Of a DNA stretch of 64,000 nt, positions 6,092 to 39,730 are shown piece after piece; the stretch's first letter is position 1, and every line of letters begins with the position of its first letter. The notes below the pieces were generated by a model. The model did not search any database and was not told the DNA's origin. It worked only from the letters and a program-made list of their open reading frames with translations. The stretch is taken from contig DASYRE010000042.1 of the NCBI GenBank assembly GCA_036004685.1, positions 1-64,000 of the forward strand, given 5' to 3'. This DNA is from Candidatus Polarisedimenticolia bacterium. GTDB lineage: Bacteria; Acidobacteriota; Polarisedimenticolia; Gp22-AA2; AA152. Position numbers and translations under genes: made by a program.

Positions 6092-7051
6092 CTAGGGAGA
6101 CGGCTTGCGGGTCGGGGCCGAGCGCAGCTGCCCTTCGGGCGGCTCCTTCGGAGCCGCGGCCAGCCTCCGGCCGAACATCTTCCATTCGCTCCACGGGGCT
6201 TCCAATCCGTCGATCTTGACACGCAGCCGCCAGCGGACTGCGGCGGGGGCCTGCTCGTCCAGCCATGAGCTTGGAAGCGTGGCGCTCAGCGAGCCGTCCG
6301 GGTCGGCCTCGATCGTCCGGGAGATCGCCTCCGACCAGTTCTGAGCGGCGCCGTCGTAGAACGACAATTCCAGGAGGTAGCCGGAAGGAAGGCCTCCGGA
6401 CGGAGGGAGGATCTGGATCGGGACGTCGGCTTCGTAGACCTTCCGCTCGGGATCCTTCACCGTGGGGGACAGCCCGGCGGCCCCCCCGCCGCGCGGCGCG
6501 GCTTTCGGGAGATGCAGCCGGCGGGCCGCTTCCGGTGACGAAGCTTCGGCGGGAGATGCTGCGCGGGGCGGGGCGGCCTCGGATCGGAAGCGGGCGTTGA
6601 ACACCCGCCAGGCGCTCCAGACGACCGGATCCCGGCTCGCTCGGGCGCGCAGGCGAAACCGCCGTGGGTCGGGGGAGGATTCCCCGAGCCATTCCACCGG
6701 CAGAACCCCGGCGACCCGTCCGTCCTCTCCGGCGGCGACGGACCGGACCTCCGGGGAGGCCCATCCCTGCGCCGCTCTATCCCACGACGAGATTTCGAGG
6801 ATGTACTCCGCCGGCAGGCCCCCTTTTTCCGACGCCGGGGGCGCGAGGCGCAGTGGCACCTCCTCCTCGTAAAGCTTCGCTTCCGGCTCCTCGATCGCCG
6901 GCGCGAACGCGGCGGCCGCGGCTTTCGTGAGGCTCCTGAGGGCCCGGCCGCCGCCGTCCCTGGTCTGAGCTTGGGCGGGAGCGGCCAGGACGGCCGCGAT
7001 CAGGACCCACTCGATCCGTCGCCCCCGCGATCCCGCAAGTCGTCTCGACAT
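6092..7051 (-). CDS. Secreted protein with two Fn3-like modules
   Basis: 319 aa. An N-terminal signal peptide (WVLIAAVLAAPAQAQ, about residues 14-28) is followed by two related modules, each opening with a '(K/V)YEx(E/D)VP(L/I)' strand, then LP(A/S)GY.LE(I/L)S, and ending in a (W/V)(R/W).AW/EWK segment. The two copies span about residues 58-160 and 200-300. The same strand order recurs in the first domain of the gene downstream at 4122-6044, which suggests a duplicated binding module. No catalytic signature is visible. The gene starts 60 bases after the stop of the glucan synthase gene, so it may be the third gene of a leftward operon with it. Confidence 0.7.
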   Translation of the reverse strand: MSRRLAGSRGRRIEWVLIAAVLAAPAQAQTRDGGGRALRSLTKAAAAAFAPAIEEPEAKLYEEEVPLRLAPPASEKGGLPAEYILEISSWDRAAQGWASPEVRSVAAGEDGRVAGVLPVEWLGESSPDPRRFRLRARASRDPVVWSAWRVFNARFRSEAAPPRAASPAEASSPEAARRLHLPKAAPRGGGAAGLSPTVKDPERKVYEADVPIQILPPSGGLPSGYLLELSFYDGAAQNWSEAISRTIEADPDGSLSATLPSSWLDEQAPAAVRWRLRVKIDGLEAPWSEWKMFGRRLAAAPKEPPEGQLRSAPTRKPSP

Positions 7052-7111
7052 GGCGATTCCTCCTTGGTCGTCACTCGATAAACACGGAATCGCCCCGGGG
7101 AAGGGGCCGCA

Positions 7112-27630: not shown

Positions 27631-29286
27631 ATGAAACTTCGCACCGGTGCGATCCTCCTCGGCCTGGCCGCGTTTCTCGGGATCGCGTCCGGATGCGGAG
27701 TCGCCGCCCAGCGGCGCGACCGGCCCAAGCTGGTGGTGCTGATCGCCGTGGACCAGCTTCGCGCCGACCTCCTGGACCGCTACGACTCCCTGTTCACCGG
27801 CGGCTTCCGGCGCCTGAGGGACCGGGGGAGGCGGTACACCGGCGCGATGGTGGAACATGCCATCACCGTCTCCCATCCGGGACACGTCACGCTGGCGACG
27901 GGCATGACGCCGGCGCGGCACGGCATCGTCGACGCCGCCTTCTTCGAAGGTCCCGCGGGGGAGCGCCGGCTGGTGGACGCCCTGGAGGATCCGGCGGAGA
28001 AGATCCTCGGCGCTCCCGACCAGAAAGGCGTCTCGCCCGCGAAAATCCTCTCGAGCACGCTGCCGGAATGGTTCGTCGGCGCCGATCCCGCGGCGCGCGC
28101 CGTCGCCGTCGGCTCCGGGCAGTATTCCTCGCTTCTCCACGCCGGGCATTTCCGCGGCGACGTCTATTGGTACTCGATCGAAGCGGGGAGGTACGTCACC
28201 TCGACCTATTACCGCCGGGAGTATCCCGAGTGGGTCGAGCGCTTCAACCGCGAAGATCTGCCGGTTTTCCTGCAGGGATGTGAAACCTGGGACAATCTCG
28301 TGCCGGAGGCGGCGAGAGGCTTGGCGCGTCCCGATGCGTCGCCCTACGAAGGGGACCACGTGCACACGACCTTCCCGCACCGTATCCTCGACGTGGCCCC
28401 ACGGGAGAAGTTCACCGACGAAGGCTTCCGGCGGCGGGCGCGCGAGTATTGGATCGCCGTGACGCCGGCGCTGGACGATGCGACCCTGACCCTGGCGGAG
28501 AGATCGATCGAGTCGCTGGCGCTCGGCCGCCGAGAGGCGACCGACTACCTTTCCGTCACCCTGTCCCAGGTCGACGACATCGGCCATGCGTACGGGCCGC
28601 TCAGCCAGGAGCAGCTCGACAACCTGTTGCGCATCGACCAGCGCCTCGGAAGGTTCCTCTCCTTCCTGGATCGATCGGTCGGCCAGGGCCGCTACCTCGT
28701 CGCGCTGTCCGCCGATCACGGCGCGCCCGACATCCCGGAGCACCGGATCGCCGCGGGTGAGAAGGCGCGCCGGATCCGGGCCGGCGAGATCCAGGCCCTC
28801 CTCGACGCCGCCGGCGCCCTGGCGGCCAAGTCGGCGCAGCCTCCCGAGCGCCTGGCCGACGAGATCGCCGGGATGCTCCGGCGCAGCCCCTTCGTGGCCG
28901 ATGCCATGACCGTCGGCGAGCTTCTTGGGAGCAGCGCGGGCGCCGATCCCTTCCGGGGGCTGTATCGCAACAACGTTCGCGCCGATCGCGTCCCCCGGTT
29001 TCCGGTCTTCTCCTCCGATCATCCCGAGCAGGGGATTGGCCGCTACGGCGTTCTCGTCCGGCTCGAGGAGGGGGCGATGATCGACTTCGACGCCTCGGTC
29101 CACGGATCGCCCTACGAATACGATCGCCACGTTCCGATGATTTTTTTCGGACCGGGCGTGGCGCCGGGCTCCTCGGACGAACCGGTCGGGACGTTCGATC
29201 TCGCTCCCACCCTGGCGGCGCTTGCCGGGGTCCCCTTTCCCCGCGGTCTGGACGGTCATCCCTTGATGGGCTCGCCAGGAGCGTAG
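27631..29286 (+). CDS. PafA-like alkaline phosphatase/phosphodiesterase family protein
   Basis: 551 aa. The start at 27631 gives a signal peptide (GAILLGLAAFLGIASGCG); an upstream open frame is shadow. The mature protein belongs to the type I phosphodiesterase/alkaline phosphatase superfamily. LVVLIAVDQLRADLLDRYD gives the first metal-binding Asp, VSHPGHVTLATGMTPARHGI holds the nucleophile region, VDDIGHAYGP and SADHGAPDIPEH give further metal ligands, and a C-terminal GPGVAPG/GTFDLAPTLAALAG closes the domain. It should release phosphate from monoesters or diesters in the periplasm. The cysteine in the signal region is a poor lipobox. It stands alone, convergent with the Crp/Fnr gene. Confidence 0.88.
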   Translation: MKLRTGAILLGLAAFLGIASGCGVAAQRRDRPKLVVLIAVDQLRADLLDRYDSLFTGGFRRLRDRGRRYTGAMVEHAITVSHPGHVTLATGMTPARHGIVDAAFFEGPAGERRLVDALEDPAEKILGAPDQKGVSPAKILSSTLPEWFVGADPAARAVAVGSGQYSSLLHAGHFRGDVYWYSIEAGRYVTSTYYRREYPEWVERFNREDLPVFLQGCETWDNLVPEAARGLARPDASPYEGDHVHTTFPHRILDVAPREKFTDEGFRRRAREYWIAVTPALDDATLTLAERSIESLALGRREATDYLSVTLSQVDDIGHAYGPLSQEQLDNLLRIDQRLGRFLSFLDRSVGQGRYLVALSADHGAPDIPEHRIAAGEKARRIRAGEIQALLDAAGALAAKSAQPPERLADEIAGMLRRSPFVADAMTVGELLGSSAGADPFRGLYRNNVRADRVPRFPVFSSDHPEQGIGRYGVLVRLEEGAMIDFDASVHGSPYEYDRHVPMIFFGPGVAPGSSDEPVGTFDLAPTLAALAGVPFPRGLDGHPLMGSPGA

Positions 29287-36505: not shown

Positions 36506-36510
36506 CCGCC

Positions 36511-36556
36511 TCGTCATTAATGTCGAACCGTGGGAATTTCTCGACATTCATGTCGT
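36511..36556. promoter_or_regulatory. Upstream activator sites 1 and 2 (TCGACA-N4-TGTCGA)
   Basis: Site 1 (36511-36526) reads TCGTCATTAATGTCGA and site 2 (36541-36556) reads TCGACATTCATGTCGT. Each is one base off the palindrome TCGACA-N4-TGTCGA. Their starts are exactly 30 bases apart, about three helical turns. They begin five bases after the activator gene's stop. Binding by the neighbouring Fis-type activator is inferred from position and symmetry. Confidence 0.7.
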
Positions 36557-36681
36557 AAAGCCGCCCCGGCGCAGGGCTCCCACCCCGCCGCGCGCTGCTT
36601 CCTCCGAAACAGCTCAAGACCTCGGCCTTTTCCCACATCGGGTTCGTGCGATGGGACGACGCCGGGCGGCCTGAAGATTTA

Positions 36682-36727
36682 TCGACATCTTTGTAGAAAG
36701 AATTGGTCACATCGACAAATGTGTCGA
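36682..36727. promoter_or_regulatory. Upstream activator sites 3 and 4 (TCGACA-N4-TGTCGA)
   Basis: Site 3 (36682-36697) reads TCGACATCTTTGTAGA, one mismatch. Site 4 (36712-36727) reads TCGACAAATGTGTCGA, a perfect palindrome. Again the starts are 30 bases apart. Site 4 ends 100 bases before the -24 element of the sigma-54 promoter, a typical enhancer distance. Confidence 0.72.
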
Positions 36728-36827
36728 GACCTCGAGCCCGCGCGGGGCCTCCCGCCGTTTCGCGATCTCCACTGCTTTCATAGAGCTGCGAGCCGGAAAC
36801 CCGTAGCGCCGGCGAGGGGAAGGCAGG

Positions 36828-36843
36828 TGGTATGGGGATTGCC
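36828..36843 (+). promoter_or_regulatory. Sigma-54 (-24/-12) promoter
   Basis: TGGTATGGGGATTGCC matches the sigma-54 consensus TGGYRYR-N4-TTGCW in all but the last position, with the invariant GG (36829-36830) and GC (36841-36842) separated by ten bases. It lies 47 bases before the malate synthase ATG and downstream of four enhancer-like palindromes. Confidence 0.78.
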
Positions 36844-36890
36844 TTAAAAGAGACGCCGAACCAGCGGCAAACGGCGCAGACCAGAGGGCG

Positions 36891-38495
36891 ATGGAAAACG
36901 ACACGATGGGAAGCATGGCATCCACGGAGCTCGAAGCCGGCGAAGTCGCGACCCCCGCGACCCCCGAACTCCCCAACGGCTTCCTGGAGTTTCTCGCCGG
37001 TCTCCGAAGCCAGTTCGAGCCGCGGCGCACGGCCCTTCTGGAATCCCGCGCCCGGGTGCTCGCCGCCGCGCACGCAGGATCGCTTCCGGGCTACCTGCCC
37101 GTTTCGGAAGCCCGGACGGCCAGCTGGCGGATCGAGCTTCCCGATTGGTCCCTGGACCAGCGCAATCAGATTACCGGCCCGGCCGACAATCCCAAGCTCC
37201 TGATCGCCATGTGCAACACCGCCGACCCCGGCTGCATGCCCGACGGGGAAGACTCCATCACGACCCAATGGGACCACGTGCGGGCGGCCCAGGAGAACAC
37301 CGTCGCCGCCATCCGCGGCGAGCTGGCGTGGACCGACCCCGAGTCGGGAAGAATTCACGAGATTCGCTCCAGCCGCCAGCTCATGTTCTACCGCCCCCGG
37401 GGGCTGCACCTCGCGGAAGGCCGGGTGGTGCCGCACGAGGAGGTCTCCGCCTCGCTGTTCGATCTCGCCGTGGTCTTCTTCCGGACCGCCGCCGAGCGGC
37501 GGGCGGTCGCCAAGGACCCCTCCGCGCAACGCAAGCTCTGCTTCTATCTCCCCAAGACCGAATCGGCGGAGGAGGCGAGGTGGTGGAGCGACCTGATCGC
37601 GGCCATGGAGGAAGCGGTGGGCCTCCCGGTCGGGACCACGAAGGTGATGTTCCTGATCGAATCGCTCCCCGCGGCCTTGCAAATCGAGGAGATCCTCCAC
37701 GAGTCGCGCCGCCACGCGATCGGTCTGAACCTGGGGCGCTGGGACTACATGGCGAGCCTGCTCCATTACAAGCTGGCCGACCCGGAGTGGATTCTCCCGG
37801 ATCGAAACACGATTCCCCACGACATCCCTTTCTTCCAGAACGTCCGGCTCCGGCTGGTCGACGTGTGCCACCGCCGCGGGGCCCTCGCCATCGGCGGCAT
37901 GACCGCGCTCTTCCCGGATCGCAAGAACGCGGAGCTGAACCGGATCGCCCTGGAGCGCCTCGCTGTCGACAAGAGCAACGAAGCGGCGGCGGGGTTCGAC
38001 GGCGCCTGGACCGGACACCCCGACCAGCACGAAGGGGCGATCCGGCAGTTCCCGTCCCCCAACCAGATCGGCGTGACCCATCCGGAAGCTCCCGCCGAGC
38101 CCCAGTTGACGCCGAACCCCCGGGGCGTGGGGCACGTCAGCCTGGCCGGGACGCGCGACGCGGTGCGGACGGTGATCGAATACCGCTTCGGAGTGCTCTC
38201 GGGACTGGGAGCGCGGCTGATCCGCGGCTTCGACCATCACGGAAACCTGATCGGGGGGTTCATGGAGGATCTCGCCACCGATCGGATCTACCGGCTGATG
38301 ATCGCCCAGAGGATCCGGCACGGCGTGGCGACGGAGGAGGGAGCGGCGATCACGCTGGAGCTCGTCAGCCGGCTGTTCGACGAGGAGTTGGAGAAGATTC
38401 TCGCGTCCGCGGGCCCGGACGAGGCAGGCGTGGCGCGACGCTATCGCCGGGCGCGCGAGCTGTCGGAAGCGATGATTCGGCGGGGCGAATTCTAA
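36891..38495 (+). CDS. aceB: Malate synthase A
   Basis: 534 aa, the usual length for malate synthase A. It condenses glyoxylate with acetyl-CoA in the glyoxylate shunt. Landmarks include PADNPKLLIAMCNTADPGCM, MFYRPRGLHLAEGRVV, KVMFLIESLPAALQIEEIL (catalytic Glu region), GLNLGRWDYMASLLHYK and GGMTALFPDR. FDGAWTGHPDQ supplies the catalytic Asp region. The ATG at 36891 has a weak AGAGGG site; ATG 36906 is an alternative. It is followed after 35 bases by isocitrate lyase and is preceded by a sigma-54 promoter, so the pair should be made only when the upstream activator fires. Confidence 0.96.
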   Translation: MENDTMGSMASTELEAGEVATPATPELPNGFLEFLAGLRSQFEPRRTALLESRARVLAAAHAGSLPGYLPVSEARTASWRIELPDWSLDQRNQITGPADNPKLLIAMCNTADPGCMPDGEDSITTQWDHVRAAQENTVAAIRGELAWTDPESGRIHEIRSSRQLMFYRPRGLHLAEGRVVPHEEVSASLFDLAVVFFRTAAERRAVAKDPSAQRKLCFYLPKTESAEEARWWSDLIAAMEEAVGLPVGTTKVMFLIESLPAALQIEEILHESRRHAIGLNLGRWDYMASLLHYKLADPEWILPDRNTIPHDIPFFQNVRLRLVDVCHRRGALAIGGMTALFPDRKNAELNRIALERLAVDKSNEAAAGFDGAWTGHPDQHEGAIRQFPSPNQIGVTHPEAPAEPQLTPNPRGVGHVSLAGTRDAVRTVIEYRFGVLSGLGARLIRGFDHHGNLIGGFMEDLATDRIYRLMIAQRIRHGVATEEGAAITLELVSRLFDEELEKILASAGPDEAGVARRYRRARELSEAMIRRGEF

Positions 38496-38530: not shown

Positions 38531-39730
38531 ATGGGACTGGAGGTGGAAGCGGCGGTGAGCGAAGCGGGGGTGGAAGTGGCGGTCGGCGCGGCGGAGGAAC
38601 GGACCTGGAGATATCCCGAGGAAGAGGTGGCGCGGCTCTTCGCGCCGCCGGAAGGGATCGACCCCTGCCTGAAGCTGCGCGCCATGCTGCGGGAGCGTTT
38701 CGAGAAGCGGCACTCGGATCCGCGCAACTCCTTCACGCACACCGCGGGCGCTTTCGACGCCCTGACCGCCTCGATGCTCACCCGGGTCGGGTTCGACGCC
38801 ATCTACGCGAGCGGCTGGCAGCTGGCCGTCGCCCACAGCATGTATCCCGACATCGGGATCTATCCCTCGCATTCGATGGTGGATCTCGTCCGCGAGCTGA
38901 TCCGCGGCGTCGAGGGGACCCGCGACACGCATTTCTACGACACCGGCGGCGAGATCCTCAACGTCCCTCCCATCTTCGCCGACATCGAGGCCGGGTTCGG
39001 AGGGCCCACCCAGACCTTCACCCTCACCCGGGAGCTGATCCGCGCCGGCGTCGCCGGGGTGCACCTGGAAGATCAGGACCCCGCGGAGCGCACTTGCGGC
39101 CACATCGTCGCCCATCACGGCAAGAAGCGGCCCAAAGTGCTGGTCGAGACGCGCCGCTGGATCGAGAAACTGATCGCCATCCGCGCGGCGGCCCAGGCCG
39201 CCGGCAAGGACGTCGTGATCATCGCCCGCACCGACGCGGTCGACGGCGCCGTCCCGGGGGGACGTGAGCCCGGGATCCGCAACGCCATCGAGCGCGGCCT
39301 CGAGGCCGCCTCGCTCGGCATCGTCGACGTGATCTGGCCGGAGTTCAACGACACGCTCCTGGACGGTCCCCGGCAGTTCGCCGAGGCGATCCACGAGCGC
39401 TATCCGAACCAGATGCTCGGCTTCAACCTCTCCCCGTCGTTGCACTGGGGCAAGGCGAAGCAGGGCGGAACGCTCCTGACCAACGCCGATCTCGGAAAGC
39501 TCGGCTACGCGCTGCAGTTCTGCACGCTGCTCGCCTTCCGGTCCAGCGGCATGGCGCTGGAGCGCGCCCTGAGGGCGTTCCGCACCAGCGGGCTGGAGGC
39601 GCTGGCCGACCTGCAGATCAGCGAGGTGGCGGAGCCCGGGCTGGAGCCCGTGACCCGGAAGCACCAGGCCTTCGCGGGGACCGATCGCTGGCTGACGTTC
39701 GAGAAGGTTGCGAAGGACGGCCGGAAGTAG
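38531..39730 (+). CDS. aceA: Isocitrate lyase (divergent active-site signature)
   Basis: 399 aa from the ATG at 38531 (GGAGGTGAGG upstream). It cleaves isocitrate to succinate and glyoxylate, feeding malate synthase. Family landmarks are SGWQLAVAHSMYPDIG, PIFADIEAGFGGP, GVHLEDQD, IIARTDAV, NLSPSLHWGK and LGYALQFCTLLAF. The signature normally read KKCGH is here RTCGH: cysteine, glycine and histidine are kept but both lysines are replaced. WCET of E. coli AceA corresponds to WPEF. This may be a separate isocitrate lyase subfamily or an enzyme for a related substrate (methylisocitrate), but pairing with malate synthase favours the isocitrate role. The first 35 residues are poorly conserved and Ala/Glu/Val-rich. 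Confidence 0.88.
   Translation: MGLEVEAAVSEAGVEVAVGAAEERTWRYPEEEVARLFAPPEGIDPCLKLRAMLRERFEKRHSDPRNSFTHTAGAFDALTASMLTRVGFDAIYASGWQLAVAHSMYPDIGIYPSHSMVDLVRELIRGVEGTRDTHFYDTGGEILNVPPIFADIEAGFGGPTQTFTLTRELIRAGVAGVHLEDQDPAERTCGHIVAHHGKKRPKVLVETRRWIEKLIAIRAAAQAAGKDVVIIARTDAVDGAVPGGREPGIRNAIERGLEAASLGIVDVIWPEFNDTLLDGPRQFAEAIHERYPNQMLGFNLSPSLHWGKAKQGGTLLTNADLGKLGYALQFCTLLAFRSSGMALERALRAFRTSGLEALADLQISEVAEPGLEPVTRKHQAFAGTDRWLTFEKVAKDGRK

Follow-up and report, generated by a model that had tools for sequence, protein, structure and literature searches.

Sigma-54 enhancers with multiple activator sites are an already known kind of system, and a number of bacterial enhancer-binding proteins (bEBPs) illustrate the different forms they may take. 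NifA recognizes an upstream activator sequence (UAS) formed by TGT, a spacer of 10-12 bp, and ACA (PMC6615313). At glnA, NtrC acts through paired tandem palindromic sites located upstream of a sigma-54 promoter (PMC7408454), and the sites of DmpR, which forms a tetramer of two dimers, are found 100-200 bp upstream (PMC7264223). The GAF-controlled NorR has three sites at norVW, where the enhancer sites scaffold the hexamer (PMC2941729), and GcsR also has three sites, of 18 bp, with the arms TGTAACG-N4-CGTTCCG (PMC4894688). The glyoxylate genes of Pseudomonas, in turn, are controlled by RccR, a repressor from another family (PMC6922535), and the title of Hagins 2010, as cited in PMC3603453, reports an influence of RpoN on the isocitrate lyase of P. 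aeruginosa.

The window analyzed here (the whole 64,000-nucleotide stretch of DNA) contains a NifA-like activator gene, four 16-bp dyads arranged in two pairs, a predicted sigma-54 promoter, and aceB and aceA (Table 1). This arrangement resembles that of NifA in nitrogen-fixing bacteria in the GAF-AAA+-Fis layout of the activator, the sigma-54 promoter, and the upstream UAS, but differs in its dyad (ACA-N4-TGT), in its predicted target, which is the glyoxylate operon, and in the lack of a nifH match over the cut-off. The tandem palindromic pair upstream of a sigma-54 promoter is shared with NtrC and DmpR/XylR, although these have other site sequences and another sensor domain, whereas the loci analyzed here share an offset within the pairs that is constant across many families, with modules that are sometimes doubled. 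NorR is likewise a GAF-type bEBP with multiple enhancer sites, and GcsR has palindromic arms of a different sequence around a 4-bp spacer, but both have three sites, rather than the two, or two plus two, of the loci analyzed here. In the case of RccR and RpoN, the likeness lies in the transcriptional control of the same enzymes. A dedicated, linked NifA-like activator of the glyoxylate genes was not found in the literature searched, in which the family-wide fixed 30-bp pitch, the ACA-N4-TGT dyad, and their use at a glyoxylate operon appear to be new.

The activator gene, the four dyads, and the orthologous locus

Table 1. Features of the activator-aceBA locus. Mismatches are counted against TCGACA-N4-TGTCGA, and centers are given relative to the predicted +1.
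Feature	Positions	Strand	Sequence or domains	Mismatches	Center	Conserved in L010 at
Activator gene, NifA-like bEBP, 509 aa	34976-36505	+	GAF, sigma-54 AAA+, Fis-type HTH			
Site 1 (distal pair)	36511-36526	.	TCGTCATTAATGTCGA	1	-335.5	3043
Site 2 (distal pair)	36541-36556	.	TCGACATTCATGTCGT	1	-305.5	3073
Site 3 (proximal pair)	36682-36697	.	TCGACATCTTTGTAGA	1	-164.5	3212
Site 4 (proximal pair), perfect dyad	36712-36727	.	TCGACAAATGTGTCGA	0	-134.5	3242
Sigma-54 promoter, predicted	36828-36843	+	TGGTATGGGGATTGCC, 9/12 to TGGCACG-N4-TTGCW			
aceB, malate synthase A-like, first predicted target	36891-38495	+	Pfam MS_TIM-barrel			
aceA, isocitrate-lyase-like, second predicted target	38531-39730	+	Pfam ICL			

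The activator matches the Pfam domains GAF, Sigma54_activat (234 bits), AAA_lid_14, and HTH_8, and has the GAFTGA loop (at 270), together with the Walker A (GESGTGKE, at 223) and Walker B (TIFLDE, at 290) motifs that identify the AAA+ domain of a bEBP, followed by the HTH at 475. The nearest solved chain is that of NifA (9qq6, E 6.7e-109), and the best NCBIfam model is nifA, at 515 bits, which is below the cut-off of 528.85. As the score falls below this curated cut-off, nifH has no match over the cut-off in the same genome (only matches far under it), and no exact TGT-N10-ACA is found near the promoter (the only ones in the window are at 28279 and 62056), these tests identify the activator as a NifA-like protein, rather than as NifA itself. 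The genome (G000) also encodes its own rpoN (PF04552, 211.7 bits, G000:C26).

The aceB product is a full-length match to the malate synthases 3cux/3cuz, although it scores below the NCBIfam equivalog cut-off, and the best solved matches of the aceA product, which is also below the NCBIfam cut-offs, are isocitrate lyases. The latter product has ERTCGH where the solved isocitrate lyases have EKKCGH or VKKCGH and, given this variant and the sub-cut-off scores of the two products, its substrate needs to be checked.

The 385-bp gap between the activator gene and aceB (36506-36890) contains exactly four dyads with the consensus TCGACA-N4-TGTCGA, the first of which begins 5 bp past the activator stop codon and is off at one position of its core ACA, which reads TCA. 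A recount agrees with the sequence-only reading that had drawn attention to these sites, both in their coordinates, N4 spacers, and maximum of one mismatch, and in the identical 30-bp offset of the two pairs, given that the start-to-start offsets are 30/141/30 bp. In 3000 dinucleotide shuffles of the gap, sites with no more than one mismatch appeared at a mean of 0.0003 (maximum of 1), in comparison with the four observed. The 3.84-Mb genome contains 16 such sites, that is, the four in the window and 12 singletons, and all the singletons in the sample whose context was examined are within open reading frames and lack a partner 30 bp away. Even with up to three mismatches, the paired pattern occurs only twice in this genome, both times in the gap. 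A distance of 30 bp corresponds to 2.86 turns at 10.5 bp per turn, so the description of the pairs as same-face dimers is valid only roughly, with the two sites lying about 50 degrees out of register. A recent tandem duplication of one pair was rejected as the source of the equal offset, since the two pairs have only 2/14 spacer bases in common in the window, and 6/14 in the relative described below, although an old duplication may underlie it.

The predicted promoter, with its +1 at about 36854, is the only match of at least 9 to the -24/-12 consensus in the gap, and presents the GG-N10-GC of a sigma-54 promoter downstream of the sites, none of which overlaps it. Scores of 9/12 arise about 0.2 times per strand-kb, and it is through its conserved place alone that the candidate element at 36828 is convincing.

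A search for orthologues among 120 relatives recovered one close match, 79-80% identical, in a genome of the same family, but another genus (G001), the next best being about 50% identical. At this locus (L010), the activator orthologue is followed by aceB and aceA, and the gap contains four sites with offsets of 30/139/30 bp, whose distances to the predicted +1 agree with those of the window within 1 bp; the promoter (TGGTACGCGCCTTGCC) is in the same place, 101 bp past site 4, versus 100 bp in the window. The arms of the sites are identical at 42 of the 48 positions, whereas the centers (5/16) are no more similar than shuffled sequence, the 14-bp spacer of pair 1 (9/14) is inside its shuffle range, and the other segments of the gap have 41-46% identity against a shuffled background of 42-47%. 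Random spacing in the relatives would have counted against the arrangement proposed originally, but the 30-bp offset has been kept while the sequence of the spacer has drifted. What can be read directly from the two genomes are the sites, with their spacing and conservation, and the position of the promoter. In a scan of 396 genomes from the phylum, tandem pairs with up to two mismatches were found only at these two aceBA loci, apart from a single two-mismatch match in G370.

In G002, a congener of G001, the peptidase and amidase genes found on either side of activator-aceBA in the window adjoin one another. This apparent empty site (L176, G002:C134:1-9000, at about 7022-7056) was not counted as evidence of joint gain or loss, given that a run of N is found exactly at the junction.

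The paired dyad in the activator family

A scan for the full TCGACA-N4-TGTCGA in the relatives that are 45-50% identical was near-empty, which had suggested a 30-bp rule limited to two genomes, but this view was reversed by the core, ACA-N4-TGT, which forms dyads that are likewise paired 30 bp apart in the flanks of these activators. A profile search recovered the activator family in 113 of the 396 genomes, and flanking sequence was gathered for 97 distinct loci. The pairs of exact dyads at these loci are 30 bp apart in 46 cases, 31 bp in 10, 29 bp in six, and 32 bp in two, with just one case each at 2 and 26 bp, and none at the remaining offsets below 56 bp. When one mismatch is permitted, the counts at 29/30/31 bp are 10/85/19, with no more than four at each of the remaining offsets between 16 and 60 bp, and the pair at 29-31 bp is present in 70 of the 97 loci and absent from 27. 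None of 18 control dyads formed a pair at 30 or 31 bp on the same flanks.

The exact-30 pair is found in 15 of 23 taxonomic families, and the 29-31 pair with exact cores in 17, and the 62 exact pairs at 29-31 bp fall into 52 clusters when grouped at 70% identity. At the level of whole genomes, 75 of the 113 with the family contain the exact 30-bp pair, versus 32 of the 283 without it (Fisher p 3e-27, a significance inflated by kinship), whereas the reversed control pattern did not differ between the two groups (7/113 and 11/283). The offset noted in the window, where both pairs are at exactly 30 bp, reappears among the 97 sampled loci of related activators, and the 30-bp pair looks like a family-wide enhancer module, a building rule rather than a coincidence.

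Some exact 40-bp matches (in G217, G075, and G282) were rejected as enhancers because they resemble repeats or perfect hairpins. One consists of ACAGGAATGTCTGTCC... units repeated in tandem every 30 bp (L287, G217:C9:95181-95373), with no obvious link to an enhancer. Near-perfect 40-bp inverted repeats of the type ACATTCCTGTCCGC...GCGGACAAGAATGT were found at G075:C1:74882, C10:26506, and C16:71071, and at G282:C7:155339, G264:C5:205455, and G370:C126:4950. These repeats, which recur within one genome, look like the hairpins of repeat elements, and not activator sites.

The distance from the pair to the nearest -24 element also follows a pattern in the family, with one cluster at 82-92 bp and a second at 100-104 bp. 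It is within 80-106 bp in 35 of the 55 cases, in comparison with a mean of 2.8 and a maximum of nine for random positions, and both the window (103 bp) and its relative (104 bp) are in the second cluster. The peaks, at 91 and about 102-104 bp, are one helical turn apart. An 11-bp rhythm, which hints at dependence on the face of the helix, is suggestive only, given that the Rayleigh values rise with the period and related loci dominate the data.

At least two pairs are found in one flank at 15 loci, with distances of about 30 to 530 bp between pairs. In two of these loci (L199 and L223), the order is the same as in the window, that is, activator stop, pair, pair, and a single -24/-12, although the gene that follows the promoter in L199 differs from the target genes of the window, and at a third locus (L205), two pairs follow the activator gene, with no -24/-12 match beyond the second. 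Several other loci have a single pair just past the activator stop codon, and in others the pair is upstream of the activator gene. Judging from these sequences, the unit is the pair, with its pitch constrained, and the number and spacing of the units free. A precise loop between pairs is not a rule of the family, even though it is conserved between the two aceBA loci (171 bp in the window versus 169 bp).

The sampled neighbors of the family loci encode the ammonium transporter Amt, glutamine synthetase (GlnA), glutamate synthase (GltB/GltD), or an MFS transporter, whereas the activator of the window is next to aceB and aceA, with no adjoining gene for nitrogen assimilation. The recognition helix also differs between the aceBA activators and their 45-50% identical relatives, and the tree places the former on a long branch, either as the sister or as a divergent member of the nitrogen family; they may be sister to this family, rather than inside it. 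In Vibrio sp. HA2012 (L048, at 4631), a one-mismatch site, TCGATAATGCTGTCGA, is found 370 bp upstream of a NifA-like activator that is 39% identical.

Probable assembly of the activator and alternative roles of the sites

It is very likely that the adjoining NifA-like bEBP uses the four sites as its upstream activator sequences, with the paired dyads seeding the AAA+ oligomer that drives aceB-aceA. Each 16-bp dyad would take one activator dimer through the Fis-type HTH, and two dyads 30 bp apart would form a rigid module, with two dimers side by side. These paired dimers may seed the assembly of the AAA+ oligomer, as the enhancer DNA of NorR does (PMC2941729), although a pair could accommodate a tetramer of two dimers, similar to that of DmpR (PMC7264223), just as well. 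To reach the sigma-54 polymerase at 36828-36843, the oligomer would then loop across some 100 bp. The proposal that paired sites seed oligomer assembly is consistent with rigid 30-bp pairs that could seat the dimers; the binding protein, the oligomer, the direction of regulation, and the inducing signal are what we infer from this arrangement.

The two modules would serve the single aceBA promoter. The proximal pair (-165/-135) is at the position typical of the family, and is probably the working enhancer, while the distal pair (-336/-306) most likely increases the local concentration of the activator and its occupancy. The distal pair might instead be a separate device, involved in autoregulation, in repression through a loop to the proximal pair, or in the control of a second promoter. 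It lies immediately after the activator stop codon, its distance from the proximal pair is kept to within 2 bp in the relative, and single pairs just past the stop codon, or upstream of the activator gene, are known from other loci of the family. This role is nevertheless rather unlikely, given that three other loci also have two successive pairs, with a single -24/-12 beyond them in two, and none in the third. The second, unseen promoter suggested by the sequence-only reading was not borne out, as neither strand has a -24/-12 match of at least 9 between the pairs, the weak matches of 7-8 found there are absent from the relative, and no gene is present.

The involvement of the linked bEBP is itself predicted from sequence, and as the recognition helix of the aceBA activators and the flanks of their sites differ from those of the family, the dyads might be bound by a different dimeric regulator, such as a repressor, encoded elsewhere, with the bEBP using other DNA. 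This is improbable, considering that the same core and 30-bp pairing are found beside bEBP members in 17 taxonomic families, at a fixed distance from the sigma-54 elements, and that the sites are clear of the promoter. The 6-bp arms and 4-nt loops could also fold as RNA hairpins, and the position of site 1, after the stop codon, would suit a terminator or attenuator. However, the sites lack a T-run terminator, none of the six differences in the arms between the two genomes is compensated, which favors recognition by a protein over RNA pairing, and a role in RNA leaves the 30-bp offset unexplained, all of which makes hairpins very improbable. A chance cluster within the 64-kb window would be a natural suspicion for sites picked by eye, with no other support, but it has practically no credibility in the face of the shuffled sequences, the conservation in the relative, and the recurrence throughout the family.

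A stackable enhancer module as a possible rule of the family

A broader interpretation, possible, but advanced here tentatively, is that these loci belong to a lineage of NifA-like activators with a fixed-pitch, stackable module (two ACA-N4-TGT dyads 30 bp apart, located some 91 or 102 bp from the -24 element), in which the pitch would be set by contact between dimers, and that a relative of the nitrogen activators was rewired to the glyoxylate operon through changes in the flanking letters of its sites. Under this interpretation, the pitch would be kept because the active AAA+ oligomer can be built only if the two dimers on the DNA make contact in a single, defined manner. If it is true, the flanking letters would confer specificity, while the pitch remains the same.

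The debate on the way in which DNA-bound bEBP dimers assemble into a functional ring rests on a few promoters (those of NtrC, NorR, and DmpR). The approximately 100 natural loci of this family, with a constant offset of 30 bp against a drift in the letters and in the spacing of the modules, offer a ready test of whether geometry dictates the assembly of the oligomer, and the ACA-N4-TGT pair provides a motif for the identification of the regulons of an unnamed family of activators. In the bacterium of the window, the arrangement points to a sigma-54 switch dedicated to the glyoxylate cycle.
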